Shown here piece by piece: positions 35,586 through 52,405 of a stretch of 64,000 nucleotides of DNA. How positions within the stretch are numbered: position 1 is the first letter of the stretch; each line of letters begins with the position of its first letter. The translations under genes and the position numbers were made by a program. Location of the stretch: positions 248,001 to 312,000 of the forward strand of contig CACYZY010000002.1 in assembly GCA_902779085.1 (NCBI GenBank). Reading direction: 5' to 3'. The notes under the pieces are model-generated. The model was not told the origin of the DNA and made no database searches. It saw only the letters and a list, made by a program, of their open reading frames with translations. The stretch comes from an uncultured Bacteroidales bacterium. Its GTDB lineage: Bacteria > Bacteroidota > Bacteroidia > Bacteroidales > Bacteroidaceae.

Positions 35586-38363
35586 ATGGAAGACAAAAGA
35601 GTTTATACTTTTGGTAACGGCCAGGCTGAAGGACGCGCTGACATGCGCAACCTGTTGGGTGGTAAAGGTGCTAACTGCGCCGAGATGAACCTGATTGGTG
35701 TTCCTGTTCCTCCTGGTTTCACTATCACTACTGAAGTCTGCAACGAGTATTTCCAGAAGGGCAAAGAAGCTGTGATTGCTCTCTTGAAAGATGATGTAGA
35801 AAAAGCAGTAGTTCACATTGAGAAGTTGATGAACAGCAAGTTTGGTGATCCAAAGAACCCATTGCTGGTGTCCGTTCGCTCTGGCGCACGTGCATCAATG
35901 CCTGGTATGATGGATACCATCCTGAACCTGGGTCTTAACGACAAGGTGGCTGAGGGTATGGTGAAGAAAACCGGCAACGAGCGTTTCGTATATGACAGCT
36001 ACCGCCGTTTCGTACAGATGTATGGCGATGTGGTGCTGGGTATGAAACCAGTTGACAAGACAGAAATTGATCCTTTCGAAGCTATTATAGAGAAGGTAAA
36101 GGAAGAGCGTGGCATCAAGCTCGACAAAGACCTGAATGTGGATGAGCTCCGCAAGTTGGTGAAACTGTTCAAGGAAGCCATCAAGAAGCGTACAGGCAAG
36201 GATTTCCCAGACAACCCAGTTGAGCAGTTGTGGGGCGCTATCTGCGCTGTGTTCGACAGCTGGATGAACGAGCGTGCCATCCTCTATCGTAAGATGGAAG
36301 GCATACCATCAGAGTGGGGTACCGCTGTCAGCGTGATGGCAATGGTATTCGGTAACATGGGCGACACTTCCGCTACTGGCGTATGCTTCAGCCGTGATGC
36401 AGGTACTGGCGAGAATGTTTTCAACGGTGAGTATCTGGTAAATGCACAGGGTGAAGACGTGGTAGCAGGTATCCGTACTCCTCAGCAGATTACCCTCGAG
36501 GGCTCACGCCGTTGGGCAAAGATGCAGGGCATCAGCGAGGAAGAGCGTGCCAGCAAGTATCCTTCAATGGAAGAGTCAATGCCTGACATCTACAAGCAGC
36601 TGTATGCTATCCAGGACAAGCTGGAGAAGCACTATAAGGACATGCAGGATATGGAGTTCACCGTACAGGAAGGCAAGCTTTGGTTCTTGCAGACCCGTAA
36701 TGGCAAGCGCACAGGTACCGCTATGGTGAAGATTGCTATGGACCTGCTGCGTGAGGATGTCATCGATGAGAAGACAGCTATCATGCGCTGCGAACCTAAC
36801 AAGCTCGATGAACTGTTGCACCCTGTATTCGAGCCTCGCTCACTGCGTCGCGCCAAGGTGCTGACTCGTGGTTTGCCAGCATCTCCAGGAGCTGCCTGCG
36901 GGCATATCACTTTCTTTGCTGACGATGCTGCTCGCGTTCATGGCTTGGGCAAGCGTGTCATCCTGGTTCGTATGGAGACTTCTCCTGAGGACTTGGCTGG
37001 TATGGCCGTTGCTCAGGGTATTGTAACCTGCCGTGGTGGTATGACCAGCCACGCTGCCGTTGTGGCTCGTGGTATGGGTAAGTGCTGCGTAACAGGTGCA
37101 GGTGCCATGATTGTTGACTACAAGAACAAGACGCTGACCATTGGCGACACCGTTCTGCATGAGGGCGACTACCTGTCACTCAACGGTAGCACAGGTGAGG
37201 TTTATGAAGGCCGTATCGATACCAAGGCTGCTGAGGTAAGTGGCGACTTCGCTGAATTGATGTACCTCTGCGACAAATATACCAAGCTGCATGTACGTAC
37301 CAATGCTGATACTCCTCGTGATGCTGCTGTAGCTCACAGCTTCGGTGCCGAGGGTATTGGTCTGTGCCGTACAGAGCACATGTTCTTCGAGGCTAAGAAG
37401 ATTCGCGCTATGCGTGAGATGATTCTGGCAGATACGAAAGAAGGCCGTGAGGCTGCATTGGAGAAGATTCTGCCTTACCAGATGATTGACTTCTACGAGA
37501 TCCTGAAGGTAATGGACAACTGCCCAGTTAACATCCGTCTGCTCGACCCACCATTGCATGAGTTCGTACCTCACGATCTGGCTGGTCAGGAAGCTATGGC
37601 AGAAGATATGGGTGTTACCGTACAGGAAATCCAGAGACGTGTGGCTGAGTTGAATGAGAGCAACCCAATGCTGGGCCATCGTGGATGCCGCTTGGGCAAT
37701 ACCTATCCTGAAATCACTGCTATGCAGACACGTGCCATCCTCGGTGCTGCCATCAAGCTGCGTAAGGAAGGTTACGACCCACGTCCTGAAATCATGGTGC
37801 CACTGATTGGTTTGGTGAATGAGTTCGACTTGCAGGAGAAAGTGATCCGTGAGACAGCAGAGAAGATGTTCAAGGATGAAGGCATTGTGGTTCGTTTCCG
37901 CATCGGTACCATGATCGAGATTCCTCGTGCTGCTCTGACAGCTGATAAGATTGCTAGGCATGCCGAGTACTTTAGCTTCGGTACCAACGACTTGACTCAG
38001 ATGACCTTCGGCTATAGCCGTGACGATATCGCCAGCTTCTTGCCAGTATATTTGGAGAAGAAGATCCTGAACGTTGACCCATTCCAGGTGCTCGACCAGG
38101 AAGGTGTTGGTCAGCTCATCGAAATGGCTGTTAAGAAGGGTCGCAACACCCGTCCAGAGCTTATCTGCGGTATCTGCGGTGAGCATGGAGGTGAGCCATC
38201 ATCAGTTAAGTTCTGCCACCGTGTAGGTCTGAACTATGTGAGCTGCTCTCCATTCCGCGTTCCTATCGCTCGTTTGGCTGCTGCTCAAGCTGCTGTTGAG
38301 GACCTCCTTGCTGAGGAGGCAGAGAAGAAGCGCAAGAAGGCAGAAGCTAATGCAGTAGCATAA
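35586..38363 (+). CDS. ppdK: Pyruvate, phosphate dikinase
   Basis: It interconverts pyruvate, ATP and phosphate with PEP, AMP and pyrophosphate. The 925-residue protein shows the N-terminal nucleotide-binding domain (LLGGKGANCAEMNLIGVPVPPGFTITTEVC), the phosphohistidine motif GGMTSHAAVVARGMGKCC and the C-terminal PEP domain with FSFGTNDLTQMTFGYSRDD and the catalytic Cys in ICGICGEHGG. The tail is Lys/Ala/Glu-rich. Codon use is strongly biased, suggesting high expression. Its last 66 bases and its terminator are repeated 3.76 kb downstream. Confidence 0.97.
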   Translation: MEDKRVYTFGNGQAEGRADMRNLLGGKGANCAEMNLIGVPVPPGFTITTEVCNEYFQKGKEAVIALLKDDVEKAVVHIEKLMNSKFGDPKNPLLVSVRSGARASMPGMMDTILNLGLNDKVAEGMVKKTGNERFVYDSYRRFVQMYGDVVLGMKPVDKTEIDPFEAIIEKVKEERGIKLDKDLNVDELRKLVKLFKEAIKKRTGKDFPDNPVEQLWGAICAVFDSWMNERAILYRKMEGIPSEWGTAVSVMAMVFGNMGDTSATGVCFSRDAGTGENVFNGEYLVNAQGEDVVAGIRTPQQITLEGSRRWAKMQGISEEERASKYPSMEESMPDIYKQLYAIQDKLEKHYKDMQDMEFTVQEGKLWFLQTRNGKRTGTAMVKIAMDLLREDVIDEKTAIMRCEPNKLDELLHPVFEPRSLRRAKVLTRGLPASPGAACGHITFFADDAARVHGLGKRVILVRMETSPEDLAGMAVAQGIVTCRGGMTSHAAVVARGMGKCCVTGAGAMIVDYKNKTLTIGDTVLHEGDYLSLNGSTGEVYEGRIDTKAAEVSGDFAELMYLCDKYTKLHVRTNADTPRDAAVAHSFGAEGIGLCRTEHMFFEAKKIRAMREMILADTKEGREAALEKILPYQMIDFYEILKVMDNCPVNIRLLDPPLHEFVPHDLAGQEAMAEDMGVTVQEIQRRVAELNESNPMLGHRGCRLGNTYPEITAMQTRAILGAAIKLRKEGYDPRPEIMVPLIGLVNEFDLQEKVIRETAEKMFKDEGIVVRFRIGTMIEIPRAALTADKIARHAEYFSFGTNDLTQMTFGYSRDDIASFLPVYLEKKILNVDPFQVLDQEGVGQLIEMAVKKGRNTRPELICGICGEHGGEPSSVKFCHRVGLNYVSCSPFRVPIARLAAAQAAVEDLLAEEAEKKRKKAEANAVA

Positions 38364-38407
38364 TCCTTGTGCAACATAATGAAGAGAGGGGGAAGCCGAT
38401 GCTTCCC
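38297..38407 (+). repeat. 111-bp direct repeat, copy A (3' end of ppdK plus terminator)
   Basis: It covers the last 21 ppdK codons, the stop codon and the left part of the terminator. Copy B at 42055-42165 matches at 107 of 111 positions without gaps (mismatches at 38344, 38351, 38365 and 38373). The two copies lie 3,758 bases apart, in the same orientation, and flank the accessory genes. Confidence 0.95.
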
Positions 38408-38416
38408 TCTCTTTTC
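38382..38416 (+). terminator. Terminator of ppdK
   Basis: AAGAGAGGG then GGAAGC, loop CGAT, GCTTCCCTCTCTT and a T-rich tail; a two-G bulge sits in the left arm. Confidence 0.8.
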
Positions 38417-38425
38417 TTATACCAC

Positions 38426-38449
38426 CTTATTGTCTTATTGTCTTATTGT
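38426..38449 (+). repeat. Three tandem copies of CTTATTGT
   Basis: Perfect 8-bp unit three times, followed by degenerate CACAATGT and CACAAAAT units to 38465. It lies just after the ppdK terminator at the left edge of the accessory segment. Confidence 0.75.
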
Positions 38450-38543
38450 CACAATGTCACAAAATTGGGACTGGCCCAAGATGTTGCATACAAAGAGCGT
38501 TTGAACAAGAACGTCGCATAATTTGCGATAATTTGCAGATTTA

Positions 38544-38575
38544 TTTGACGATTCGGAATTATATTAATATCTTTG
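38544..38575 (+). promoter_or_regulatory. Bacteroidetes promoter for the DUF4143 ATPase
   Basis: TTTG (38544-38547), a 20-base spacer and TATCTTTG (38568-38575). This is one of the best promoter matches in the window. Confidence 0.75.
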
Positions 38576-38576
38576 C

Positions 38577-38611
38577 ACTGAGTAAAATTACTCACTCCAC
38601 TGAGTAAAATT
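38577..38611 (+). promoter_or_regulatory. Operator-like direct repeats at the ATPase start site
   Basis: ACTGAGTAAAATT occurs at 38577-38589 and again, identical, at 38599-38611, two helical turns (22 bp) apart. The first also forms the interrupted palindrome GAGTAA-AA-TTACTC (38580-38593). The repeats fall directly on the expected transcript start and leader, so a repressor or autoregulatory site is plausible. Confidence 0.5.
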
Positions 38612-38619
38612 TAAACGAC

Positions 38620-39807
38620 ATGTACAAGAGGGCTGAATATCAAGTAATAACAAGTAGATTAAAAGAGCCAAGAAGGTTCATTCAAGTTGTGATGGGACCG
38701 CGTCAAGTGGGTAAATCTACTGTTGTTAAGCAGGTGCTTCAAGATTTAAATTTGCCTTATCAGCAGTTCTCTGCCGATAATGTGCCAGCCTCAAATACTG
38801 CTTGGGTATCTAATTGTTGGGCTGCTGTTCGAAGTCTGAAGGAGAGCAAAGTCCTTGATAGTATGATTCTTGTTATCGATGAAATTCAGAAGATATCTAA
38901 TTGGAGTGAGGTTGTAAAGAAGGAGTGGGATGATGATACCTTTCACGATCGCAACATTAAGGTGTTGTTGCTTGGTAGTAGTCGTGTGCTATTAGAAAAA
39001 GGACTTTCTGAGTCGTTAGGAGGCCGTTTCGAAGAAATACGCATGACTCATTGGAGCTATCCTGAGATGAAAGAGTGCTTTGGCTTTACCCTCGACCAGT
39101 ATCTTTTCTTTGGAGGTTACCCTGGTGCAGCCAGCCTGATAAATGAGACAGATCGTTGGGAGCAGTATATACAGTCGGCAATCATTGATGCGACCATCAA
39201 TAAGGATATCCTGATGAATACGCCTATCAGTAAGCCAGCCCTTCTTCGTCAGACTTTTGAACTTGGCGCTTCTTACTCTGGCGAGATTCTCTCTCTCAAC
39301 AAAATGCTTGGTTCTTTGCAAGACGCAGGAAACGCCGTTACTCTGGCAGGTTATATCAATCTGCTTGATGAGAGTGGTATGCTGTGCGGACTTCAGAAAT
39401 ATAGTATCGATACAGCAAGACGTCGAGCCAGTATTCCCAAATTTCAGGTTTATAACAATGCCCTAAAGGTGGTGTATAATCCTCATACATTCGATCAGGC
39501 TATTATGGATCGTAAGGTGTGGGGGCGCATCTTTGAGTCGGGTATTGGTGCTTGGATTGTCAGTCAGGCTTTTGTTCATCGCATTGAAGTGTTCTACTGG
39601 CGTGAGCTTGCCAACGAAGTTGATTTTATTCTTCGCAAGAAGGGAACAGTCGTTGCCATCGAAGTGAAGAGTAATGCCGAAAAGAAAACGAAAGGTCTTA
39701 GTGAGTTTAGGGATAAGTTCAAACCAAAATCGGCATTTATCGTGGGTGATGGTGGTATTAGCGCTGAAGAGTTCCTTTCTATGGATATAAGGAATCTTTT
39801 CAAATAA
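38620..39807 (+). CDS. AAA-type ATPase with DUF4143 C-terminal domain
   Basis: A member of a widespread, horizontally mobile ATPase family of unknown function. Walker A is GPRQVGKST (residues 26-34) and Walker B is ILVIDEIQ (near 84-90); the sensor segment VLLLGSSRVLLEKG follows. The C-terminal DUF4143 part contains ELANEVDFILRKKGTVVAIEVKS, a pattern like the E-x-D-(I/V)EVK core of PD-(D/E)XK nucleases. The length of 395 is complete. It has its own strong promoter and repeat-rich leader and lies inside the segment bounded by the ppdK repeats. Confidence 0.88.
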   Translation: MYKRAEYQVITSRLKEPRRFIQVVMGPRQVGKSTVVKQVLQDLNLPYQQFSADNVPASNTAWVSNCWAAVRSLKESKVLDSMILVIDEIQKISNWSEVVKKEWDDDTFHDRNIKVLLLGSSRVLLEKGLSESLGGRFEEIRMTHWSYPEMKECFGFTLDQYLFFGGYPGAASLINETDRWEQYIQSAIIDATINKDILMNTPISKPALLRQTFELGASYSGEILSLNKMLGSLQDAGNAVTLAGYINLLDESGMLCGLQKYSIDTARRRASIPKFQVYNNALKVVYNPHTFDQAIMDRKVWGRIFESGIGAWIVSQAFVHRIEVFYWRELANEVDFILRKKGTVVAIEVKSNAEKKTKGLSEFRDKFKPKSAFIVGDGGISAEEFLSMDIRNLFK

Positions 39808-39892
39808 TAACTTCATACGTATATCGTTGCAGGCAATGGAGAATAATACAATTAACAGGTAGATAATGGTAAACATTCAAATCAGCAAGAAT

Positions 39893-40120
39893 ATGGATTT
39901 CATTAAATTAGCAAGAAGCAGGTACTCCTACAAGAAGTTTGACTCGCGTCAGATCAGTAAGGAACAACTAGACAGCATCCTGGAGGCAGGACGCGTGGCT
40001 CCGACAGCCAAGAACCTACAGGTACAGCATGTCTATGTGGTGCAGTCTGCAGAAGGCGCAGGACCGTTGGCCAATCACAACAGCCACAAGCCAATTGAGA
40101 AAACAGTAACTTACCTATAA
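39893..40120 (+). pseudogene. Nitroreductase family protein, truncated remnant
   Basis: The N-terminus MDFIKLARSRYSYKKFDSRQISKEQLDSILEAGRVAPTAKNLQVQ is a clear nitroreductase FMN-binding start (RSRYS, AGRVAPTAKN). Family members have about 170-200 residues, but here homology fades after about residue 55 and a stop comes at 76, with the next gene 12 bases later. The FMN domain's central and C-terminal parts are missing, so this is most likely a deletion remnant and inactive. A longer in-frame start at 39866 exists. Confidence 0.75.
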
Positions 40121-40134
40121 ACAATACATCAATG

Positions 40135-41049
40135 ATGAAAGAAAGTTTGTCAAACTCGATATTCATGCTGGCATGCACTTTTCTTTGTGTGATGAGTGCA
40201 TGTGCTCAGGCTCAGTCGAATGATATCGTCGCAGAAGGGGAAACCCCTGTGAAAATCTCCGATTCGTACAGCTTTACAGAAGGACCTGCGGCAGACGCAA
40301 GGGGTGATGTATTCTTTACGGACCAGCCCAACAACAGGATATACCGTTGGAACTGCGAATCCGGAGAGATAACGCTGTTCTCTGATCAGAGTGGCCGCTC
40401 CAATGGGATGTACTTCGATGCCCAAGGTAACTTGATTGCCTGTGCAGACATGGACAATCAGCTCTGGTCTTTCGATACGGAGGGTCATCCCGAGATACTA
40501 ATAACCGACTACCGCGGCAAGCTGCTCAACGGCCCCAATGATATATGGATCTCGAAGGATGGAAGTTATTATCTGACTGACCCTTATTTTAAGCGCGACT
40601 ACTGGACACGCAACCCAGAGCGCCAGCAGCCTGTGGAAGGCTTGTATTATCTTTCTCCGGGAAGCAAACAACTGATTATGCTTGACTCGACGCTTAACAA
40701 GCCTAATGGCCTTGTGGGAACGCCCGACGGGAAACATCTGTATGTGGCTGAAGCAAGGGCAAACAGAATCCTAAAATACGACATTCAGTCTGACGGCTCT
40801 TTGTCGAACCGGCAGGTGTTTGCCGATATGGGGTCGGACGGGATGACGATAGATGACCGCGGAAACATCTATCTTACAGGCCATGGTGTGACCGTATTCG
40901 ATAAGGATGGACAGAAAATAGCCCATTTCCCCATTCCCGAGAACTGGACTGCCAACGTCTGTTTTGGCGGAAAGGAGCGCGACGTCCTGTTTATTACCGC
41001 ATCGAAGTCTGTTTACACCCTGAAAATGCGCGTCCATGGGGTAAGATAA
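40135..41049 (+). CDS. SMP-30/gluconolactonase-like exported protein
   Basis: A six-bladed beta-propeller lactonase-like protein. After a signal peptide ending at CVMSACAQAQ (Cys about residue 23 could be lipidated), the mature part shows SFTEGPAADARGDVFFTDQPNNRIY, SNGMYFDAQGNL, LLNGPNDIWISKDG, NKPNGLVGTPDGKHLYV and DGMTIDDRGNIYLTG, which carry the Glu, Asn and Asp metal ligands of the family. It probably hydrolyses a sugar lactone in the periplasm; the substrate is unknown. Base composition is more GC-rich than the ATPase gene upstream. Confidence 0.86.
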   Translation: MKESLSNSIFMLACTFLCVMSACAQAQSNDIVAEGETPVKISDSYSFTEGPAADARGDVFFTDQPNNRIYRWNCESGEITLFSDQSGRSNGMYFDAQGNLIACADMDNQLWSFDTEGHPEILITDYRGKLLNGPNDIWISKDGSYYLTDPYFKRDYWTRNPERQQPVEGLYYLSPGSKQLIMLDSTLNKPNGLVGTPDGKHLYVAEARANRILKYDIQSDGSLSNRQVFADMGSDGMTIDDRGNIYLTGHGVTVFDKDGQKIAHFPIPENWTANVCFGGKERDVLFITASKSVYTLKMRVHGVR

Positions 41050-41069
41050 AAAATAAAAAAAACGAAAGA

Positions 41070-41183
41070 ATGGAAAGTCATATTTCTAGAGAGGCGCCCG
41101 AGTTGCTGCGCGAAGGAGGTGTCGGCGAACTGAAGGATTGCGATGTAAAAGTGGCAAATGAAAGTGCCTTGTGGCAATCGTAG
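41070..41183 (+). pseudogene. 37-residue orphan ORF, probable gene fragment
   Basis: The frame opens with ATG after an AACGAAAGA ribosome-binding-like stretch and encodes MESHISREAPELLREGGVGE and 17 more residues, ending in TAG. The composition looks like real coding sequence, but I do not recognise a family. It lies 20 bases after the SMP-30 gene. The likeliest reading is the 5' remnant of a deleted gene. Confidence 0.4.
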
Positions 41184-41215
41184 TATTTGATATTCGATAA
41201 ATCGGGATTTATGAC

Positions 41216-41995
41216 ATGAACAAAGTTGCCAGCTTTTTTAAGCCCCTGATGCCCATTCTCTCGGCTGTTTATGGTTTAGCGATTATTTACATAACAGCGC
41301 TGCCTATCGCTGACAATAATCCTACCATCGTTAGCGAAATACTGACATGGCTAATTACATTGGTGGGCATTGCAATGACGTTCTATCTTGTGCAATATGT
41401 CGAACCGAAAATATTCCCTGCGGCTGAACAATTTCCACTGAAGTTGCCTAGTATTTTCGTCTTATTAGGACTGTTGTTGATAGCGCCTCTATGGCTTGTT
41501 GCGGAAGGGTATATCGTATATGGCATGACGTCGCTGGTTCAGCCTGTTCAGATGGAATCGCTGATCTACACAACAGAAGAATTGCGTGAAGACCTTCTAT
41601 CCAGCATACATGCAATATTTCTTGCCCCTGTGCTCGAAGAGCTATGCTTCAGACAAATGGCGATTTCTCCCTTCCGCCGCCGAAGCGCAATAATCGTTGT
41701 CTGTGTGGTGATGGCTTTTTTGTTTGGACTGCTTCACGTGCGCAACTTCCCTGGTGCTTTTATCAGTGCCCTGGTCTACGGGTTTGTGTTTATTTGGTCG
41801 CGAAACATCTGGTATAGTGTGATACTACATGCAGGTCATAACCTCGCTGCCACACTCTTTGCTGTTTACTGCTGGTTACAATTAGGCGACATGCAGATAA
41901 CGAAAATTCCTGTTATCATCCTGCCTGACATGAAGGTCATCATCGCAAGTTTGTTCTTAGCCATTGCAGGAGTACTATTACTAAAGAAGAAATAA
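41216..41995 (+). CDS. CPBP-family intramembrane glutamic protease
   Basis: CPBP (CAAX protease and bacteriocin-processing) family membrane protein with seven or eight hydrophobic segments over 259 residues. The motifs are in order: EELCFRQ (EExxxR), FGLLH (FxxxH) and HAGHN (HxxxN/B). Bacterial members act in bacteriocin immunity, peptide processing or unknown roles; nothing nearby identifies the substrate. A repeat of the ppdK 3' end begins 60 bases after its stop. Confidence 0.87.
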   Translation: MNKVASFFKPLMPILSAVYGLAIIYITALPIADNNPTIVSEILTWLITLVGIAMTFYLVQYVEPKIFPAAEQFPLKLPSIFVLLGLLLIAPLWLVAEGYIVYGMTSLVQPVQMESLIYTTEELREDLLSSIHAIFLAPVLEELCFRQMAISPFRRRSAIIVVCVVMAFLFGLLHVRNFPGAFISALVYGFVFIWSRNIWYSVILHAGHNLAATLFAVYCWLQLGDMQITKIPVIILPDMKVIIASLFLAIAGVLLLKKK

Positions 41996-42054
41996 TAAAT
42001 TCCAATTTAGTGAAACACTAGAAGCTGACATAGAAAAAGATTATCATCAGCTAA

Positions 42055-42165
42055 TGAGGACCTCCTTGCTGAGGAGGCAGAGAAGAAGCGCAAGAAGGCA
42101 GGAGCTAACGCAGTAGCATAATTCTTGTGCTACATAATGAAGAGAGGGGGAAGCCGATGCTTCCC
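42055..42165 (+). repeat. 111-bp direct repeat, copy B (orphan ppdK 3' end)
   Basis: Second copy of 38297-38407. It still encodes the last 21 residues of ppdK in frame up to TAA at 42119-42121, with one Glu-to-Gly and one silent change, but there is no ppdK sequence upstream of 42055. It marks the right boundary of the 3.76-kb segment. Confidence 0.95.
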
Positions 42166-42210: not shown

Positions 42211-42759
42211 CTAGGCAGCCAGCTGATGACGCCACTTGTTGCTGTTTCTGAACGCCAGGCGATAGCCTCTGGCAATCTCCTTGGCAGGAACATCCTTCAT
42301 GCGGCAACCGTTCTCCACACAAGTCATGGCTTTGAGCAGTTTGGTGAGCTGCCTCATGCCTTCACTTGTCTCTGGTGGCATCAGCTTTTCTTGACCACCA
42401 GCAGAGCCTATCACCACTTCAATGATGTTTTCCCCGTCGAAGCAACGTTGCAGCTTCTCCTCCGGCAACTGACTGATCAGTGTCAACACATGACTGATAT
42501 AACCTTGTGTGTCGTTGTGGTCACCGGGTGGTGCCCATCGGTTGATGATGTTGCACACGTTGAAAGGCTGCTTGTCCACCGTCTGGAACCTGCGGTAGTA
42601 GCTGGCCAATACCTTCCATGCAGCACGATAGCCATAGGCCATGTTTTCGAACTGTACAAATGCCTTGTCGGTCTGTATGTCGCACTGACCTACCCAATGT
42701 GTGGTACCCCTTCTTATGTTCAGGGGATTATTGTTTCTGAATCCTCTTGTCTCTTTCAT
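42211..42759 (-). CDS. Phage structural protein P5-like
   Basis: The N-terminus KETRGFRNNNPLNIRRGTTHWVGQ with FVQFENMAYGYRAAWKVLASYYRR and INRWAPPGDHNDTQGYISHV matches a family annotated in Bacteroidetes genomes as P5-like phage structural or cell-wall-associated proteins, often in genomic cassettes. The NNPLNIR segment recalls lysozyme-like domains, so a peptidoglycan-active role is possible but unproven. Length 182. Its ATG overlaps the stop of the upstream VirE/DUF3987 gene (ATGA), indicating coupled expression. Confidence 0.7.
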   Translation of the reverse strand: MKETRGFRNNNPLNIRRGTTHWVGQCDIQTDKAFVQFENMAYGYRAAWKVLASYYRRFQTVDKQPFNVCNIINRWAPPGDHNDTQGYISHVLTLISQLPEEKLQRCFDGENIIEVVIGSAGGQEKLMPPETSEGMRQLTKLLKAMTCVENGCRMKDVPAKEIARGYRLAFRNSNKWRHQLAA

Positions 42760-45113
42760 GGTATAGGCATGTTTTTAACTGTTCTACTGTTCGTTGTTCG
42801 TTCTTTCTTCGAGCTGGAATGTGTCTTGCGGTAGGCCATGGTCTTAATATATTCGCCAGTAGTCTCATCCTTTTCTGCATAACCTCTTTTAATCCACATT
42901 CGTAACATGTCCTGTCCTTGTCCGCATTTCCCAGCTTTTCTGCGCACCTCTGTCACGTCATCCTGGGTGAAGCGGTCGGGCAGTAGTTCCAACAGGTTTT
43001 TGGGGCCCCTCAGCATATTCAGCTGTTCCTTGCCCATCTGTTCCTGCATCTGCTCTCCGAAGAATTTCATCTTGCACCATAGGTCATAGCGCTCACTCCA
43101 ACGTACGAAGTGCTCAATCTTCTCGTCCCACTGGCAACCCTGTGCCACATACAAGGTCATGGCTTTCAGATAGGCAATGACGTTGGCACGGTACGACAGC
43201 GCTTCGTAGGCTTCATCGTCGCTCAAGTTAGCTACATCGGCATTTTCTTGCAGCAGTTGTTTGGCAAGCTTTTCAGCCTCCAGGCAGCTGACGATGCCCT
43301 CGGCTGCATTGAGGTTGTCGATATAAGGCCTCAGCTCTTCGGCAAAAGTGTCATCATAGGTGCCGATGACTGGTATATCTGCTCCTCGCTCTGTCAGTAT
43401 GGTGCAGAAGTTGAGTCGGCTCAGCGTTCCATCAGCTAACGAGTTACGGAAATAGTGTTGCCCGTTCTGAATCGTTGATGAGGCGTTCCAATTCCACTTC
43501 ACACGCACACGGGCAGTCACCGACTGCGTCCCCACACGCTCTTGTCCGTACCATCCGTTATCGAATGCCAGGCGTATGATCTGGCTCACCTGCTGCCCCT
43601 TGCTGCTGGTTTTCAGCTGGTCGAGCAGTTCCACCTCATCCAGACGGGTATAGATAAAGTTGCCGTGTGCTTCCTCCAATCGTCGCACAAACGCAGCATT
43701 AGTCATATCACTCTGCACCAGTTGTATGCATAGGTTATCTGGGCGTTTTGGCTTCTCTTTGTTGGCTCCTTTGCGACAGGTCTCTTCACTCCACTCCCGT
43801 TCACGTCTTCTACTTTCCTGGTCACGTCCCTCAATATCAGCTAGTATGTAATCAATAGGCTTGTTCACACAACTTTTTCCCACGCTCATCTTGGCCATCA
43901 GCACGCACATGAAAGTGGGTTGCCGCAGCACATTGTCGATATATCGGAAATAAACGTTGCCTAAGTGGGTGCCCAATGCGGGAAATACAGCGTGTGACAC
44001 ACAGGGTTTGTACAAATTGGGTACTTTTGAAGTAAGCAGCCTGATTAGTGATGGCAACAGTTCTATTGGTGGCATGGGCGGTGGTGTGTTGTCCATTCCT
44101 CCTCCCAGGTTGAGAGTTGTTTGCACCTGCATCCTGCTTCTAGCTATACTGATTGCTCGTTGCACTACCTGCGGCATAAACCTCGATTGTGCCCGGTTAC
44201 AGGCGCTTTCCATTGTTCTGTAGGCTCTGTCGGTATCCTCTCCATAGGTGGGTAGCACCTGCTTGATCCATTCGGGAGAGTCATTGCACACATAACGCAG
44301 ATGACATGCCATCGAGAAGATGAAATTGTTACGTGAACCATGTGCTGGTACGCCACCCAACTGTTCTGCCAGTGCTTCTACTAGGGTCGGGTAGGGAATG
44401 CCATCGTAATCTGTTTCAAATTGACCATTGTCTGCCAAGGGTTGCACTTCTGGCTTCCCCTCCGAAATAGATGTGTTGGCCTTTTCTTTCTCTAATTTAA
44501 ACGGGATTTCTCTCTCTGAATTTTCTCCCTCATTAAATAGCAACTCTTCGTCTATGTAGAAGAAATCTTGACGGGGCACAGCAAAACTGGTACGCGACAT
44601 GTCTTTGCATTTCTCATCAATGCTTTCCTGCATTATGGTGGCTATCCACTGCTGGTCATCCCAAATGCTTATCCCAGAGCGACGTTTCAACACTAAACGA
44701 AGGCCGAAACCTCCTGCCGTACGGTGAGCCGCTGCCAGGAATCCTTTCAGTGGAATATTATTGTCACACAATGTCTGCTTGAACTTGTCAAACAATTCAA
44801 GTGCTTTATCCTTATCACGGTCAAAGTCCATCATAAACAAGCCTGTTGGTTGCAGGAACTGCTCCGAACGACTCCCTTTCAGTTTGGTTACACCAGTTTT
44901 ACGGCACTCATCCACATAGTTCTGGTATGCCTCTTGCACCAGTTCTCCGCCAAAGATGAAAGCAGGCAGTTTTCTTTTACCGGCCTTATTGCTAGTACCA
45001 CGCACTTCGATAATCCGCTTAGCTACTATATCCGAATCGATAATTTCAAAGAACTTTTCCTTTGTGCAAGGCTTCCATTCCTTATCGTTCACACTATTAA
45101 TATATCCTATCAT
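42756..45113 (-). CDS. VirE N-domain/DUF3987-type primase-helicase-like protein
   Basis: A 785-residue protein of the type found in mobile cassettes across Bacteroidetes. The N-terminal part (residues about 1-190) has LQPTGLFMMDFDRDKDKA, an acidic DxD-like site resembling the BT4734/VirE N-terminal domain. A middle segment carries HGSRNNFIFSMACHLRYVCND. The C-terminal half is a P-loop module with VLMAKMSVGKSCVN (Walker A near 407-414) and DEVELLDQL. This suggests a primase fused to a helicase or ATPase acting on DNA; activity is inferred. The last residues (KERTTNSRTVKN) are encoded by a copy of the repeated 22-bp motif. Confidence 0.78.
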   Translation of the reverse strand: MIGYINSVNDKEWKPCTKEKFFEIIDSDIVAKRIIEVRGTSNKAGKRKLPAFIFGGELVQEAYQNYVDECRKTGVTKLKGSRSEQFLQPTGLFMMDFDRDKDKALELFDKFKQTLCDNNIPLKGFLAAAHRTAGGFGLRLVLKRRSGISIWDDQQWIATIMQESIDEKCKDMSRTSFAVPRQDFFYIDEELLFNEGENSEREIPFKLEKEKANTSISEGKPEVQPLADNGQFETDYDGIPYPTLVEALAEQLGGVPAHGSRNNFIFSMACHLRYVCNDSPEWIKQVLPTYGEDTDRAYRTMESACNRAQSRFMPQVVQRAISIARSRMQVQTTLNLGGGMDNTPPPMPPIELLPSLIRLLTSKVPNLYKPCVSHAVFPALGTHLGNVYFRYIDNVLRQPTFMCVLMAKMSVGKSCVNKPIDYILADIEGRDQESRRREREWSEETCRKGANKEKPKRPDNLCIQLVQSDMTNAAFVRRLEEAHGNFIYTRLDEVELLDQLKTSSKGQQVSQIIRLAFDNGWYGQERVGTQSVTARVRVKWNWNASSTIQNGQHYFRNSLADGTLSRLNFCTILTERGADIPVIGTYDDTFAEELRPYIDNLNAAEGIVSCLEAEKLAKQLLQENADVANLSDDEAYEALSYRANVIAYLKAMTLYVAQGCQWDEKIEHFVRWSERYDLWCKMKFFGEQMQEQMGKEQLNMLRGPKNLLELLPDRFTQDDVTEVRRKAGKCGQGQDMLRMWIKRGYAEKDETTGEYIKTMAYRKTHSSSKKERTTNSRTVKNMPIP
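42779..42800 (+). repeat. 22-bp cassette-end motif, copy 1 (inverted orientation)
   Basis: The plus strand contains CTGTTCGTTGTTCG, the reverse complement of CGAACAACGAACAG in copies 2 and 4; the 22-bp match has 2 differences. It falls inside the 3' end of the VirE/DUF3987 reading frame. Confidence 0.7.
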
Positions 45114-45144
45114 TGTTATCAGATGATTACGTTAATACTTGGCA

Positions 45145-45531
45145 TCAGGCACGCTGCTGGTAGAAAGAAAACTCTATAGTTTTTGAGTGCAGGAACTCCA
45201 TGATAAGTTTCATGTCGTTTTCCAATAGTTCACACACCATCTTGTGCCCCAATTTCTTGGGGAATGCCAATTGAATGACCAGCTTATTCGTAGTTGCTTT
45301 CACACATCCGCAGCTGGTGTCTAACAGCACATCATAGCGACAGCCAATCCTGCCTTCCTGCACAGGAGTCACTAGGGTATTGCCGTGCTTGTCGCGCTTG
45401 ACACGGGCACGGAAGCTCAGTTCCTCATTAAAAATTTCACGCTTGAACACAGGTTCCACCTCCATCTGCCCACCGTTGTCGTAAGTTACATTGGCGGTCA
45501 TCGCCACCTTTTTCATCAAAGTCTTTTTCAT
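45145..45531 (-). CDS. Hypothetical cassette protein, 128 residues
   Basis: No family recognised. The sequence begins MKKTLMKKVAMTANVTYDNGG, is basic, and contains RIGCRYDVLLDTSCGCVKATTNKLVIQL, with three Cys in a short span, and a C-terminal helix-like region. It lies 32 bases upstream of the VirE/DUF3987 gene on the same strand and is probably co-transcribed with it. It is soluble and has no signal peptide. It could be an accessory DNA-binding or replication protein, but nothing shows this. Confidence 0.65.
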   Translation of the reverse strand: MKKTLMKKVAMTANVTYDNGGQMEVEPVFKREIFNEELSFRARVKRDKHGNTLVTPVQEGRIGCRYDVLLDTSCGCVKATTNKLVIQLAFPKKLGHKMVCELLENDMKLIMEFLHSKTIEFSFYQQRA

Positions 45532-45692
45532 ACTTCAAAATGTTTTTAATAAATAAATCTGTTCAAACAACTCAGCGCCGAATTGTGTCAGCAAAGGTAA
45601 GGCAAAGTGAAAAGGTCACTCTACAACAACAAAAACTATTTAAGTTGTAATTGGGTACAAAAATAGTTGTAGATTTACGATTTTATGTCGCT

Positions 45693-46280
45693 TTATTCCA
45701 TGCCCTTGCGATGGCGCTCTTCAATCACATCTTCCATGCTATGAAAGATAGCGAGGTGCTCTTCAAGTGATTTTGTCTGCATGGCATGTGATATCTCATT
45801 CTGAAAACTGTTTAGGTTGATGCGGAATGCTTTGCTTATGATGTCCATTAATAGGCAGGTAGGTATTCGCTTTTTGTCTTTGCGCCTTATCAATAAGGGC
45901 TCTGTAAGATTGGCTAAGGCATATAGCACCAGTTCGAGATTCTTCTTGGCACCATGATAATCTGCAAGTTCTATTTCATAGGAAGGGTCGTTTGATTTAG
46001 CATTTGTTGCTTTCTGTAGTTCCAACTCTTCCTCTAACTCGGTTATACGTTGATCCTTCGCTTGTAATATTTCGTCTTTCGATTGGATGATTTGATTTCT
46101 CTCTTTGATTGTTTCTTTGAGCAATTCTATTTCAGCAATTCTTTTGTCAAACTCTTCTCGTGCGTTTTTGATGCTGTTTGTAACAAACTCTGTATATCTG
46201 ATGTTTTCTTCAAGCGAATGCTTACGCTCTTTATTGGTCGCTTCGAGTAAATCCAGTTCATGGTAGTTAGTTTTTTCCAT
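45693..46280 (-). CDS. Hypothetical coiled-coil protein
   Basis: No family recognised. Residues about 10-95 form a strong coiled coil (heptad-like pattern through REEFDKRIAEIELLKETIKE and QRITELEEELELQKATN), followed by a more globular, basic C-terminal half (LVLYALANLTEPLLIRRKDKKRIP). It resembles the N-terminal coiled-coil accessory proteins seen with mobile genes, but no function can be assigned. A TACCTTTG box lies 96 bases upstream. It is first in the minus-strand order before the 128-residue and VirE/DUF3987 genes. Confidence 0.7.
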   Translation of the reverse strand: MEKTNYHELDLLEATNKERKHSLEENIRYTEFVTNSIKNAREEFDKRIAEIELLKETIKERNQIIQSKDEILQAKDQRITELEEELELQKATNAKSNDPSYEIELADYHGAKKNLELVLYALANLTEPLLIRRKDKKRIPTCLLMDIISKAFRINLNSFQNEISHAMQTKSLEEHLAIFHSMEDVIEERHRKGME

Positions 46281-46375
46281 CCACTTTGTTTAATTGTGGT
46301 ACAATAATTTTTTTCAAAACAAAATGTGTATGGAAAAGTATGTAGACTTAAACAGCCATTTGGTTTTGTTGGCTG

Positions 46376-46383
46376 CAAAGGTA
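46376..46383 (-). promoter_or_regulatory. Bacteroidetes -7 box for the minus-strand cassette genes
   Basis: TACCTTTG on the minus strand, leaving a leader of about 90 bases before ATG 46280. Confidence 0.6.
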
Positions 46384-46616
46384 GGAATAATTTTACAAAC
46401 AGCAGCAAAAATCGTCAACTATTTTTTTACTTATTATAATTATTCAACATTTATACAAATAACTGATAAACAAATTATTATATATACGTGTATTTTTATA
46501 TATATAAGTTGAATTGTATAAAATTATAAACATATAATACTATTACATGTGATGTGTTTTTTATAATTTTCCTTTACCATATAATCAATAAAAAAGGATG
46601 TGAAGAGATAGCATTT

Positions 46617-46650
46617 CGAACAACGAACAGATGAACAGTTGTTTTTCTGC
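46617..46650 (+). repeat. Cassette-end motif, copy 2 (direct, long form)
   Basis: It starts CGAACAACGAACAG and runs for 34 bases that match copy 4 (47906-47938) except for one extra T. An internal AACAAC/GTTGTT pair allows a weak hairpin. Confidence 0.85.
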
Positions 46651-46773
46651 TTGTAACTGATGGTGAGAAATGGAAGAATGATTAGCAGTTGTATATTTAT
46701 TTATTATTATATAATAATAATAAAAATTCTTTCAGAGAGGAATTAAGATTGCTGTGTCTGTGCCCATTTTTAT

Positions 46774-46795
46774 TTGTTCAATTGTTCGTTGTTCG
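46774..46795 (+). repeat. Cassette-end motif, copy 3 (inverted)
   Basis: Contains TTGTTCGTTGTTCG, the reverse-complement form of the motif, with 3 differences over 22 bases relative to copies 2 and 4. Confidence 0.65.
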
Positions 46796-47027
46796 GATTA
46801 TCGGGCACAAGATGGCACTTTTTACAGTAGCTTGGTCAGTCCTCTTTCATGCTGAAGTTTTTTTTCTCCAACGAGAAATTTTTTCATGCCTCACGAGGGA
46901 AAAAATAAACTGTGTCTATAGCAGACAACGGCAAATGGTTAACAGGTTGTTAAATCCATTTCAATGCATATTGTAACGCTTTTCGTATCAGCGTATTGTA
47001 ATTGAATTAAAGGAATACTGGGATTCT

Positions 47028-47060
47028 TTTGCATAAGGTGTCAACCGTGGTATATCTTTG
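47028..47060 (+). promoter_or_regulatory. Bacteroidetes promoter for the HU-like gene
   Basis: TTTG (47028-47031), a 21-base spacer and TATCTTTG (47053-47060), 47 bases before ATG 47108. Confidence 0.7.
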
Positions 47061-47107
47061 CACCGTCAAATCGATTCGACAGCATGTTTAACCTTAATCC
47101 CAGAACA

Positions 47108-47668
47108 ATGAGTATCAAAGTAAACGCAAGACAGACACTCCAGAAGATCGGCACCCATGCAGGTCAGTACCGCTATGTCATGCAGACCGAGCTCTACAAC
47201 CGTTTGAACGCCACGAAGGTGTTGAAGGAAGCAGCCCTTCGCAGCGGTATTCCCCAGGGCAGCATGACCGCCTGCTGGCAAGCCATTGGCGATGTCATCA
47301 AGGCATGGGCCACCGAGGGCCATAGCGTCGCCATCCCCGGCTTGGGCTCCATGCGCTTCTCCGTTCGTGCCACCAGCGTAGAGAACGCCGAGGATGTAGG
47401 CACAGGCCTTATCAAGACACGCCGCGTCATCTTCGTTCCCAGCGTCGACATCAAGGACGAGCTGAAGCGCACAGGCATCAACATCACCTGCTACGACAAG
47501 GACGGCAATGTGGTGAAGCAGGTAGCCAGCCAGGACAACGGCGATGTGGAGGACGAGGCATCTACCCGCACTGACGACCAGACCGGTGGCAACACTGGCG
47601 GCAATACTGGTGGTAACACTGGTGACAATGGCGGTGGTGACGGTGGAGGTGACGATCTCCAGATTTAA
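47108..47668 (+). CDS. HU-like DNA-binding protein, Bacteroidetes cassette type
   Basis: Residues about 1-125 match the HU/IHF-like family typical of Bacteroidetes (SIKVNARQTLQKIGTHAGQYRYVMQTELYN, VAIPGLGSMRFSVRA). The tail is disordered: an acidic segment, then Gly/Asn repeats (GGNTGGNTGGNTGDNGGGDGGG). HU-like proteins bend or package DNA. GC content and codon use are clearly higher than in flanking DNA. ATG 47108 is preferred to 47084 because it matches the family start. A smalltalk gene follows 18 bases later. Confidence 0.85.
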   Translation: MSIKVNARQTLQKIGTHAGQYRYVMQTELYNRLNATKVLKEAALRSGIPQGSMTACWQAIGDVIKAWATEGHSVAIPGLGSMRFSVRATSVENAEDVGTGLIKTRRVIFVPSVDIKDELKRTGINITCYDKDGNVVKQVASQDNGDVEDEASTRTDDQTGGNTGGNTGGNTGDNGGGDGGGDDLQI

Positions 47669-47686
47669 TCATAACACTACTACACC

Positions 47687-47803
47687 ATGAAGAACAAAGA
47701 ATTTTGGAAATCCGTTATCCAACTCGTGATATCGGTTTTGACGGCAGCCCTGACTGCCATTAGCACTACCAGCTGCATGGGCCACGGCCCCATCTACATG
47801 TAG
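47687..47803 (+). CDS. Smalltalk-family small membrane peptide
   Basis: A 38-residue protein, MKNKEFWKSVIQLVISVLTA followed by ALTAISTTSCMGHGPIYM, with one hydrophobic segment at residues about 10-27 and a Cys at 30 in TSCMG. The KxxWK start, the single helix and the TSCM end match the smalltalk proteins annotated after HU-like genes in Bacteroidetes. Their function is unknown. It is 18 bases after the HU-like gene and probably co-transcribed; a terminator follows. Confidence 0.85.
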   Translation: MKNKEFWKSVIQLVISVLTAALTAISTTSCMGHGPIYM

Positions 47804-48063: not shown

Positions 48064-50280
48064 TTAACGGATAAATAACAACTCTCGATATTTTGGCAAT
48101 GGCCACAGACTGTCGTCAACAATCAGTTCCAACTTGTCTATTTCATATCGGATAGCATCAAACTTCGGTGCTACCGTGTCGTGGTAAGCAACAGCTTTTT
48201 CGTACTCACCCTCTATCTTGTTGGCTACCTTTCGGGCATTGACAAGCTCCTCTACACCTGCCTCAATGGTGCTGGTTCGTATGGCTATCTCCTCAATGAT
48301 CTTCAGGTTGCGTGCATTCAACTTCTCTGCTTTGTCGGCAGGGAACAGTTTTGAGACACTATCTACATTTTTCAACAATGCTGTCTGATAACGGGTAGCC
48401 ACAGGAATGATGTGGTTCATTGATATGTCGCCTAAAACGCGCGCTTCAATCTGCACTTTCTTCGTGTAGGTTTCCCATTTAACCTCATTGCGTGCCTCTA
48501 ATTCTTTGCGAGTCATTACGCCGAGGCTTTCGAACATCTGTATGCTCTCCGGGGCGAGATAGCTTTTAAAAATCTCTGGACATGATTTCTCAACATCGAG
48601 TCCACGCTTCTCAGCCTCAACCACCCACTCATCACTATAACCATTACCATCGAAACGGATAGGCTTGCATGTCTTGATATCTTCACGCAAAACGTCGATA
48701 ACGGCATGCATTATCGGATTATGTCCTGATCCCTCGAAGTCGTTTTCTATCTCGACAATGCGGGCATCCACACGCTTCTTAAAGTTGACAAGAGCTTCGG
48801 CTACGGCACTATTGAGGGTAATCATTGCGCTGGCACAATTGGCTTCTGAACCTACAGCGCGGAACTCAAAACGATTGCCTGTGAAAGCGAATGGAGAAGT
48901 ACGGTTACGGTCAGTGTTGTCGATAAACAACTCGGGAATCTCGGGGATATCCATCTTCATACCCTGCTTGCCATCCATAGAAAGAATATTCTCACGATCA
49001 GCCATTTCGATATGATCCAGCAACTCAGAAACCTGCTTCCCTAAGAATGATGAGATGATGGCTGGAGGAGCTTCGTTAGCACCTAGACGATGAGCGTTTG
49101 TGGCACTCATAATGGAAGCCTTCAGCAGCCCGTTATGGCGATACACGCCCATCAGTGTCTCAACGATGAAAGTGGCGAAACGCAGGTTCTGTTCAGGTGT
49201 CTTGCCTGGCGCATGCAACAGTACGCCATTGTCGGTTGATAAACTCCAGTTATTGTGCTTGCCACTTCCGTTGATACCTGCAAACGGCTTCTCATGTAAC
49301 AAAACGCGGAATCCATGCTTGCGAGCTACACGCTTCATCAACGACATCAACAGCATGTTGTGATCAACTGCAAGATTGGTGTCCTCGAAGATAGGTGCCA
49401 ATTCAAACTGGTTAGGAGCCACCTCGTTATGACGAGTCTTGCAAGGGATGCCCAGTTCCAAAGCTTCGATTTCCAGTTCACGCATGAAGGAAGCCACGCG
49501 CTCGGGAATAGAGCCGAAATAGTGGTCGTCCATCTGCTGGTTCTTGGCACTGTCGTGTCCCATCAGCGTACGACCTGTTAGCAATAAGTCCGGACGTGCG
49601 GCATAAAGTCCTTCATCAACGAGGAAATACTCTTGTTCCCAACCGAGGTTGGATGTTACCTTCTTGACTGTAGGGTCGAAATAATGACATACTTCGGTAG
49701 CTGCAACATTGACAGCATGCAATGCTTTTAACAATGGTGCCTTGTAGTCTAGTGCCTCTCCAGAGTAGGATATGAATACTGTAGGGATGCAGAGTGTATC
49801 ATCTATAATGAATACAGGACTTGTTGGGTCCCATGCTGAATAGCCACGAGCCTCGAAGGTGGAACGGATGCCGCCAGAGGGAAATGATGAAGCATCAGGT
49901 TCCTGCTGTACTAGCAGCTTACCAGTAAACTCTTCCACCATGCCTCCCTTGCCGTCATGTTCAATAAACGAGTCGTGTTTCTCTGCTGTGCCTTCTGTCA
50001 GTGGCTGAAACCAATGTGTGTAGTGTGTTGCCCCCATTTCTGTTGCCCACTGCTTCATCCCTTCTGCAACAGCATCGGCCACTTTACGATCAAGACGTGC
50101 ACCATTGTCTATAACGTCTATCATTTTCTCATACACATCTTTGGGCAGGTATTTGTACATCTTTTCGCGGTTAAAGACCTTGTTCCCAAAATACTTTGCA
50201 GGTCTTTCTTTTGGCGTGTTAATGTCGAGCGGTTTCTTCTTGAATGCTTCGCCGACCACCTGAAATCTTAGTGTTTCCAT
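48064..50280 (-). CDS. glnN: Glutamine synthetase type III
   Basis: It makes glutamine from glutamate, ammonium and ATP. The 738-residue length and the motifs FQPLTEGTAEKHDSF, FPSGGIRSTFEARGY, the ATP and glutamate-binding segment HEKPFAGINGSGKHNNWSLS and NRTSPFAFTGNRFEFRAVGS are characteristic of GSIII, the form typical of Bacteroidetes and cyanobacteria. It follows dapL by 5 bases on the same strand and is therefore probably expressed with dapF and dapL. Confidence 0.97.
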   Translation of the reverse strand: METLRFQVVGEAFKKKPLDINTPKERPAKYFGNKVFNREKMYKYLPKDVYEKMIDVIDNGARLDRKVADAVAEGMKQWATEMGATHYTHWFQPLTEGTAEKHDSFIEHDGKGGMVEEFTGKLLVQQEPDASSFPSGGIRSTFEARGYSAWDPTSPVFIIDDTLCIPTVFISYSGEALDYKAPLLKALHAVNVAATEVCHYFDPTVKKVTSNLGWEQEYFLVDEGLYAARPDLLLTGRTLMGHDSAKNQQMDDHYFGSIPERVASFMRELEIEALELGIPCKTRHNEVAPNQFELAPIFEDTNLAVDHNMLLMSLMKRVARKHGFRVLLHEKPFAGINGSGKHNNWSLSTDNGVLLHAPGKTPEQNLRFATFIVETLMGVYRHNGLLKASIMSATNAHRLGANEAPPAIISSFLGKQVSELLDHIEMADRENILSMDGKQGMKMDIPEIPELFIDNTDRNRTSPFAFTGNRFEFRAVGSEANCASAMITLNSAVAEALVNFKKRVDARIVEIENDFEGSGHNPIMHAVIDVLREDIKTCKPIRFDGNGYSDEWVVEAEKRGLDVEKSCPEIFKSYLAPESIQMFESLGVMTRKELEARNEVKWETYTKKVQIEARVLGDISMNHIIPVATRYQTALLKNVDSVSKLFPADKAEKLNARNLKIIEEIAIRTSTIEAGVEELVNARKVANKIEGEYEKAVAYHDTVAPKFDAIRYEIDKLELIVDDSLWPLPKYRELLFIR

Positions 50281-50285
50281 AAATC

Positions 50286-51524
50286 TTATAAATTATTGTT
50301 TGTCCATTTTTCTAATCTCATTAATGCTTCTTCTGTCAGCTCGTGACTTCCAAATGCAGTGAATCGCACATATCCTTCACCTGCAGGACCAAATCCTACA
50401 CCTGGTGTGCATACGACATTGGCACCATAGAGCAAGTTTTCAAAGAATTGCCATGAACTGCTGCTATCTGGGGTGCGCATCCAAATATAAGGAGCATTCT
50501 CCCCACCATATACTTCATAGCCTAGTCGACGCAGGGTAGCAAGCATCTGTTTGGCATTATGCATGTAATAGTCTATTGTTGCCTTTACTTGTTTCTTCCC
50601 TTCTGGTGTATAGATGGCTTCTGCGGCTCGCTGACTGATATAGCTTGTTCCATTGAATTTAGTGCACTGGCGTCGATACCACAAAGGATTGAGAGGGATG
50701 CGTTCGCCTGTAAGCGTAGAAGCTGTCAATTCTTTTGGAACGACGGTATAACCACATCTGATGCCTGTAAAACCAGCTGTTTTTGAGTATGAGTGGAACT
50801 CAATGGCACAATGACGGGCTCCACGAATCTCATAGATGGAATGTGGGATGTCATCATCCTGGATGTATGCCTGGTAGGCTGCATCGTAGAAGATGAGCGC
50901 ATCGTTCTTCAGTGCGTAGTTGACCCACTTTCGCAGCTCCGACTTGGTGATAACCATTCCTGTAGGGTTGTTGGGATAACACAGGTAAATTACATCTACA
51001 CGACGATCAGGAATCTTTGGGACGAAACCATTTTCAGCTGTACATGGCATATAGACTACATTTGACCATTTGCCATCCTCTATCGTGCCTGCACGACCTA
51101 TCATAACGTTTGAGTCTATATAGACGGGATAGATAGGGTCAGTAACGCCTATAGAATTGTCCCAACGTATAAGTTCCTGAATGTTTCCAGTATCGGACTT
51201 GGCACCGTCATTTATAAATATCTCATCGATATCAAGGTGAATGCCACGCGGCAGGAAATCGTTCTTTAAGATAGCTTCACGCAAGAACACATAGCCTTGT
51301 TCGGGGCCATATCCCTTGAACCCCTCAGCTGTACCCATCTCATCTGCTGCTTTGTGCATGGCATCAATAACGGCAGGACAGAGTGGTTGTGTTACATCGC
51401 CAATGCCAAGCGAGATAACATTTGCCTTGGGGTGCATTACCTTAAAGGCATTCACCTTTTTGGCTATATCAGCAAACAGGTAGTTGTTTGACAGTTTCAG
51501 GAAATGTTCATTTACTAAAGCCAT
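50286..51524 (-). CDS. dapL: LL-diaminopimelate aminotransferase
   Basis: PLP aminotransferase converting tetrahydrodipicolinate directly to LL-diaminopimelate, bypassing the succinylase steps. The 412-residue protein has ISLGIGDVTQPLCPAVI, FINDGAKSDTGNIQEL, CYPNNPTG and the PLP lysine in FHSYSKTAGFTGIRCGYTV. Length is typical. It sits between dapF (18 bases) and glnN (5 bases), tying lysine/peptidoglycan precursor synthesis to nitrogen assimilation. Confidence 0.96.
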   Translation of the reverse strand: MALVNEHFLKLSNNYLFADIAKKVNAFKVMHPKANVISLGIGDVTQPLCPAVIDAMHKAADEMGTAEGFKGYGPEQGYVFLREAILKNDFLPRGIHLDIDEIFINDGAKSDTGNIQELIRWDNSIGVTDPIYPVYIDSNVMIGRAGTIEDGKWSNVVYMPCTAENGFVPKIPDRRVDVIYLCYPNNPTGMVITKSELRKWVNYALKNDALIFYDAAYQAYIQDDDIPHSIYEIRGARHCAIEFHSYSKTAGFTGIRCGYTVVPKELTASTLTGERIPLNPLWYRRQCTKFNGTSYISQRAAEAIYTPEGKKQVKATIDYYMHNAKQMLATLRRLGYEVYGGENAPYIWMRTPDSSSSWQFFENLLYGANVVCTPGVGFGPAGEGYVRFTAFGSHELTEEALMRLEKWTNNNL

Positions 51525-51542
51525 ATTTTGTTAGCGTTTTAG

Positions 51543-52370
51543 TTACAATTCAAGTTCTATTTCTCCTTCAAAGACGAAAGAAGCAGGCCCCGTCATATAC
51601 ACATGTTGGTCTGCTTCACGCCATTCAATGCTAAGTGTTCCACCATCCATCACGATATCCGATTTACGGCTTGCTCTGCCTGTAACAAATGCAGCAACTG
51701 CAGTAGCACAGGCTCCTGTGCCACATGCCTGTGTAATGCCACTGCCTCGTTCCCAAACTCTGGTTCGTATGGATCCGTCGGAATTGATGTTAGCAAACTC
51801 AATGTTGCAGCGCTGTGGAAAGGCAGGATGATGTTCCAGAAGGGGACCTGTCTCTCCAACCTGATCCACATTGTCGGTAAAAATGACATAATGTGGGTTA
51901 CCCATTGAAACGAATATACCTTGTGTGAGTTCTTGATTAGAAAGATACTGCTGTTCATCCTGCAGTTTAGGCTTAAGCATATCTACTGTAACGCTTTCAA
52001 CTGTTTCACCCTCGACATTCAACCAAAGAGTCTTCACTCCAGAGAGTGTCAGTAGCCGAATTACTTTTTGTTTAGTCAGTCCTCTTTCATACAAATACTT
52101 ACCGATGCATCTGGACGCATTGCCACACATCATGGCCTCTGAACCATCAGCATTGAAGATGCGCATGGAATAATCGGCTTCTGGAATGGGCGATTTGCCA
52201 ATTAATACCAAGCCGTCGGATCCGATGCCTTTATGTCGGTCGCTCAGAAGAATGGCCATTTCAGCTGGTGAAGGTACCTCATACTGCATCGTATTGACGT
52301 AGATGTAGTCATTGCCACAACCATGCATCTTTGAAAATCGGATTTTATGTGACTTTTTGGTACTCATCAT
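51543..52370 (-). CDS. dapF: Diaminopimelate epimerase
   Basis: It converts LL- to meso-diaminopimelate. Two catalytic cysteines are visible in [11 protein letters not shown] and [20 protein letters not shown] at the N-terminus and GNPHYVIF are standard. Length 275 is normal. Two adjacent ATG codons (52370 and 52367) are possible starts. A promoter lies 36 bases upstream. It is the first gene of dapF-dapL-glnN. Confidence 0.96.
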
Positions 52371-52405
52371 TTAGTATATTTGTACTTTTTGTTATGTTTA
52401 TGATG

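Follow-up and report, generated by a model that had tools for sequence, protein, structure and literature searches.

An orphan copy of the ppdK 3' end beside a known integrase attachment site in an uncultured Bacteroidales genome

PvCTn-like conjugative transposons of the Bacteroidota have their attB, a motif of 20 bp, in the 3' end of ppdK, the gene for pyruvate phosphate dikinase, and their integration leaves imperfect direct repeats and regenerates a stop codon (PMC11005914). Here we describe a ppdK locus in a 64,000-nucleotide stretch of DNA from an uncultured Bacteroidales bacterium (the window; positions 248,001 to 312,000 of contig CACYZY010000002.1, assembly GCA_902779085.1), where the intact gene is followed, after several accessory genes, by a second, orphan copy of its own tail and terminator. 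Insertion at the ppdK 3' attachment site is likely to have taken place in this window, because the published attB is present, congeners carry integrases behind ppdK and the repeat starts within the motif. The features on which the argument turns are the following (window coordinates; genomes compared are given G numbers).

35586..38363, + strand: ppdK, pyruvate phosphate dikinase, 925 aa, intact (Pfam PF02896, PF01326, PF00391).
38280..38299, + strand: match to the PvCTn attB motif taken from PMC11005914, 1 mismatch in 20; the first three bases of the repeat overlap it.
38297..38407, + strand: copy A, the last 21 ppdK codons, the stop codon and the terminator (alignment, hairpin folding).
38408..38576, + strand: stretch downstream of ppdK common to G006 and G028, and to G137 only up to 38527 (alignment).
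41996..42054, + strand: junction piece X; the sequence preceding copy B in G028 matches it at 91% over 57 nt.
42055..42165, + strand: copy B, orphan ppdK tail and terminator (alignment, hairpin folding).

Copies A and B are identical at 107 of 111 positions, as claimed in the original prediction made from the letters of the window, and they form the sole direct repeat of at least 45 nt reported in the whole window (exact seed of 14), which excludes chance as the source of the pair. Of the 10 positions immediately to the left, 5 agree, and of the next 10 none; on the right side the similarity decays within about 20 nt. Copy A is the true end of ppdK, its terminator hairpin folding at -28 kcal/mol (z -5.0), and copy B retains an equal hairpin (-27.6, z -4.2) and ends, in the frame of ppdK, in a stop. 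Because another in-frame stop precedes it by about 10 codons and this frame contains no ATG, GTG or TTG between the two stops, copy B is not a gene, in keeping with its earlier description as an orphan tail.

With its start at 38297, the repeat overlaps the final three bases of the motif (38280-38299), which places the likely insertion at the same site in the ppdK 3' end that PvCTn-like elements use. Within the genus (a set of 158 genomes), the 497-aa integrase that follows ppdK in G021 served as query at E <= 1e-40, with at most the nine best candidates scored per genome, and 52 of the 158 genomes gave matches. Loci were retrieved for the best 20 matches, and the remaining matches were compared with ppdK by contig and position. 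The integrase adjoins ppdK in 17 of these 20 loci, the other 3 being without it; in all 17 the motif is present with 0–3 mismatches and the stop codon ends 2.3–4.3 codons past it (distances from the motif include the stop codon itself). Of the remaining matches, only those of G029 and G024 lie beside ppdK by coordinates, the G024 copy being broken by a stop, so that in all 19 of the 158 genomes carry it just behind ppdK, in a search that favours the nearest kin of the query because the query itself adjoins ppdK. As a separate observation, G029 has two related integrases 70 kb apart. A local-seed survey recorded an integrase starting within 400 nt behind ppdK in 3 of 80 loci, which is an undercount, since G056 and G085, both among the 80, were missed there and found by the integrase search. 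Over the 99.9 kb examined in G021, motif sites with 0–1 mismatches occur at ppdK, at +118 bp and at +67.9 kb, three attachment sites that suggest repeated insertion behind this gene. The site published for gut Bacteroidota is thus also used in this genus. Given the published attB and the congener integrases, a protein gene as target is not the unusual feature that had been supposed, the ppdK 3' end being already an attachment site in the published account (PMC11005914).

The right-hand junction is shared with one relative. Apart from G028, no other convincing match to X turned up, and the junction of X with copy B is matched by just two of the 158 genus genomes, the window's own and G028 (best five candidates or fewer per genome). 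A search of the genus with the junction peptide returned G028 at 1e-11 and the window at 2e-5, followed only by G123 (0.4) and G014 (1.0), and among 399 family genomes the window was the sole match at E <= 0.01. X looks truncated; in G028 it is an open frame that starts 8 nt past the preceding stop and enters copy B in a frame other than that of ppdK. Since G028 has the same X and copy B but different genes between its two copies, copy B is older than the cargo.

The variable stretch is longer than the segment between the copies: it extends from about 38.58 to 47.9 kb, as far as the glutamine synthetase gene, and its contents differ in every relative compared. Sequence in common with relatives reaches 38576 on the left side (G006, G028) and resumes at 47892 on the right (G137); between these points nothing is shared with the relatives compared at E <= 1e-8 except the ppdK-tail copy. 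The stretch and its right flank contain the following.

38564..39816, + strand: DUF4143 ATPase gene (ORF 38620-39807) with its own leader, in the slot of a lost Fic gene (domain scan, PDC-S01 match).
39818..39858, + strand: Fic remnant, last codons (TYIVAGNGE-stop versus SYIVTGNRE-stop; gene intact in G028; sequence comparison).
39866..40120, + strand: nitroreductase remnant, 84 aa (domain scan).
40132..41049, + strand: SMP-30/SGL family protein (domain scan).
41070..41183, + strand: mini-ORF, probably left over from an HD-like gene of which G153 has an intact copy (short match, by eye).
41216..41995, + strand: CPBP (Rce1-like) membrane protease (domain scan).
42211..47803, no single strand: second accessory block, from copy B to glutamine synthetase (protein scans).
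48064..50280, - strand: right-hand conserved flank, facing ppdK, taken by us from its sequence to be a glutamine synthetase of type III.

The domains proposed earlier for the ATPase, the nitroreductase remnant, the SMP-30/SGL protein and the CPBP protease were all confirmed. The accessory segment drawn at 38297-42165 does hold accessory genes but does not end at copy B, as the DNA from 42.2 to 47.9 kb is also missing in the relatives compared. Four of the compared genomes contain the whole interval from ppdK to the synthetase: 9.7 kb in the window, 5.3 kb in G137 (TonB receptor, PepSY protein), 3.3 kb in G153 (an HD-like protein below the Pfam cut-off, YjbR, a hexapeptide transferase, GNAT) and 3.2 kb in G028 (Fic, a 183-aa protein, copy B). 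Copy B is present in two of the four, the window and G028, and G137 and G153 have a single ppdK tail with other cargo. Differing in length and content from genome to genome, the interval is a hotspot of which the 38297-42165 segment is only part.

Replacement within the hotspot has been piecemeal. The DUF4143 gene has nine full-length matches in other genomes (71–74% identity) that start at 38564-38572 and end at 39793-39816, so that the gene travels with its own leader. The Fic remnant behind it comprises 41 nt at 88% identity, and a genus-wide search places the match at the corresponding spot in G028, and the DUF4143 gene now holds the position of the former Fic gene. As homology labels, the DUF4143 protein matches the PADLOC candidate defence family PDC-S01 (E 1e-183) and the G028 Fic matches SoFic (E 6e-45). 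Given this remnant, the other cargo found in G028 with the same junction and the non-canonical form of the two copies, the idea that the five genes between the copies represent the inserted element is not supported. The second block encodes an endolysin-like protein of 182 aa, a 785-aa protein with no Pfam or NCBIfam match that we presume to be VirE-like, an HU-family protein (PF18291) and a 38-aa peptide, presumably smalltalk-like. An imperfect inverted repeat flanks the CPBP gene (41193-41210 and 41997-42014, 14 of 18 positions by eye), a weak similarity that may be due to chance, and a repeat of about 30 nt (GAACAACGAACAG...) is found at 46617 and 47906, with further copies in the same genome, G137 and G006.

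The anchor gene itself carries signs of exchange between species. Identity between the window and G013 is 84–86% in nusA and 90–99% in ppdK; at 4-fold sites, the two agree at 99 of 154 positions in nusA versus 97 of 99 in ppdK codons 450-650, and G006 and G137 agree at 70 of 149 positions in nusA versus 119 of 138 in ppdK codons 150-450. In the more distant genomes G155, G065 and G124 the increase is smaller, nusA values of 0.58, 0.58 and 0.47 standing against ppdK values no higher than 0.74, 0.73 and 0.62, so that codon bias alone does not explain the ppdK identity of the close pairs. Judged from these comparisons, ppdK is an interspecies mosaic. The window also resembles G013 at 97–100% (93% in one 400-nt window) over the roughly 11 kb of 49601-60621, which may reflect either a recent interspecies exchange or a binning artefact. 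The G013 copies of ppdK and the synthetase are about 110 kb apart. In a four-copy alignment (copies A and B of the window and of G028), the first part of the repeat has 4 informative columns, and all 4 join A with B within each genome, as if this part had been homogenised in each. Five columns farther right join A with A and B with B across the genomes, and two further columns, in the poorly aligned sequence past the repeat, again pair the copies of one genome.

The explanation towards which we lean, tentatively and with substantial reservation, is that an old integrase insertion stranded the native tail and that homologous exchange later restored a full ppdK tail and swapped the genes behind it. 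A mobile element would have inserted at the attachment site near the ppdK 3' end, either in an ancestor shared with G028 or in the donor of the region, cutting off the old native tail, which would have become copy B; the integrase and transfer genes of the element would subsequently have been lost. The full tail, copy A, could have been kept or regained, through an element-borne tail copy or, as we judge likelier, through exchange with the ppdK of a relative, in which case homologous recombination would have brought in the full 3' end together with the DNA behind it. Piecemeal exchange between the copies may then have installed Fic in G028 and the DUF4143, SMP-30 and CPBP genes in the window. 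We infer both the integrase origin of copy B and this order of events.

Several observations weigh against this explanation. The motif does not stand at both ends, as attL and attR: copy B differs from it at 10 of 20 positions in register, the best match near copy B has 6 mismatches and is out of register, and copy B of G028 has 8, as compared with only 0–1 at the inner att sites of G021. The stop of copy A ends 21.3 codons past the motif versus 2.3–4.3 in 17 of 17 loci with ppdK and integrase, and the repeat covers the terminator, unlike those canonical loci; a 111-bp repeat with terminator is therefore not the normal product of this integrase. The genome of the window has no match to the G021 integrase at E <= 1e-40 (3 of 3 candidates scored), in line with the earlier remark that no integrase is visible, and G006, G013, G137, G028 and G153 are not among the 52 genomes with a match. 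No PF00589 match lies less than about 70 kb away on the ppdK contig in nine genomes, several of these contigs being short. G028 has 21 columns that distinguish A from B; outgroups agree with A at 10 of them, with B at 5 and with neither at 2, and have no majority at 4, a tally that gives no preference to B as the older tail. Of the five columns that group by copy, four fall just beyond the 111 nt, in the CT-rich end of the terminator, and only one within them, so that the case for a common age of both B copies depends on junction X. Taken alone, an ordinary integrase event does not yield the A/B structure. The earlier proposal of an integrase insertion that restores the ppdK end is thus sustained as to its route, which is published (PMC11005914) and has 19 of 158 congeners behind it, and not as to its products, as A and B are not a canonical attL and attR.

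A rather unlikely, though serious, alternative, homology-facilitated illegitimate recombination, dispenses with the integrase: incoming DNA of a relative would have recombined homologously in ppdK, and its far end, inside gene X, would have joined the recipient tail illegitimately, leaving copy B displaced. Homologous exchange in the anchor gene is indeed seen in the ppdK mosaic, which also lends support to the recombination with foreign ppdK DNA mentioned as an alternative in the original prediction. This course of events would account for the long repeat with its terminator and for the open frame of X that reaches copy B out of the ppdK frame in G028, and the same idea has been put forward for orphan 3' ends at type VI secretion system (T6SS) effector and Rhs genes (PMC5361080). 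It does not predict a junction at the end of a known attachment motif, however, and no full-length X was found with a 25-residue query in the 158 genus and 399 family genomes. The attachment-site paper and the genus-wide integrase search place it second, below the scar of an integrase.

It is improbable, in our estimate, that the ppdK 3' end was duplicated locally in a common ancestor with G028 and the pair later split by accessory genes. In its favour, the two copies of G028 are similar at 81% over about 160 nt, DNA beyond the terminator included, but in both genomes copy B is preceded by X, which is not ppdK sequence, and no tandem form appears among the matches listed (best four to five candidates per genome). 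An assembly or binning artefact, conceivable because many of the genomes are split into many contigs and the window's own assembly has 39, is very hard to credit when the separately assembled G028 has the same junction of X and copy B.

Some further candidates were discarded. A search of 50,697 phage and 72,556 plasmid records for element-borne ppdK tails, with a 151-nt query, found none at E <= 1e-5; the single pattern match of the ppdK tail to a viral contig (L153) is a chance match in a long protein that we take to be of tail type, and the junction X pattern had no viral-contig match. The sequence AAATnCCAAT at the start of X was rejected as a recombination site, the similarity being confined to G153 (95% over 20 nt) and the count in the window being equalled in 5 of 100 shuffles. 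Another orphan ppdK tail, of 99 nt, is present in G006 (C61:1204-1302; L034), identical at 100% to the tail of G137 and at 92% to that of G006 itself; it adjoins a phosphate transporter gene that we presume to be nptA-like, and relatives are without a tail at that place.

The leading explanation, an integrase scar reworked by homologous exchange, connects the varying DNA behind a housekeeping gene with an integrase site already on record, and suggests that exchange of genes, candidate phage-defence genes included, can continue there after the element is lost. That the ppdK end is a two-step exchange site, where an integrase strands a tail and the tails and flanks then allow homologous swapping of genes, is a distinctly speculative extension; it is equally speculative that the genes so swapped, such as a SoFic-type Fic for a DUF4143 gene of PDC-S01 type, would need no recombinase of their own.

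Compared with PvCTn-like elements, the locus has the same gene and place, a repeat starting in the 20-bp motif, an intact gene end and imperfect direct repeats; it differs in that no integrase was found, copy B is without the motif, the 111-bp repeat takes in the terminator and the stop lies at 21.3 rather than 2.3–4.3 codons. No BVU3433-type regulator or conjugation genes turned up among the scanned proteins of 38.6–47.7 kb, the regulator itself not having been a query. Prophage e14 of Escherichia coli integrates in a protein gene, icd, and carries a long copy of the gene end, and the present locus would be similar in both respects; here, unlike e14, no integrase was found and the scanned cargo does not look like that of a prophage. 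In the displacement of C-terminal ends at Rhs and T6SS effector genes, a complete gene is likewise followed by new genes and then by an orphan 3' end (PMC5361080), whereas the gene in the window is a housekeeping enzyme with near-identical tails that has gained no new C-terminus. The ppdK 3' end is already known as an integrase site, and the structure in the window appears, from its sequence, to be a non-canonical form of it.

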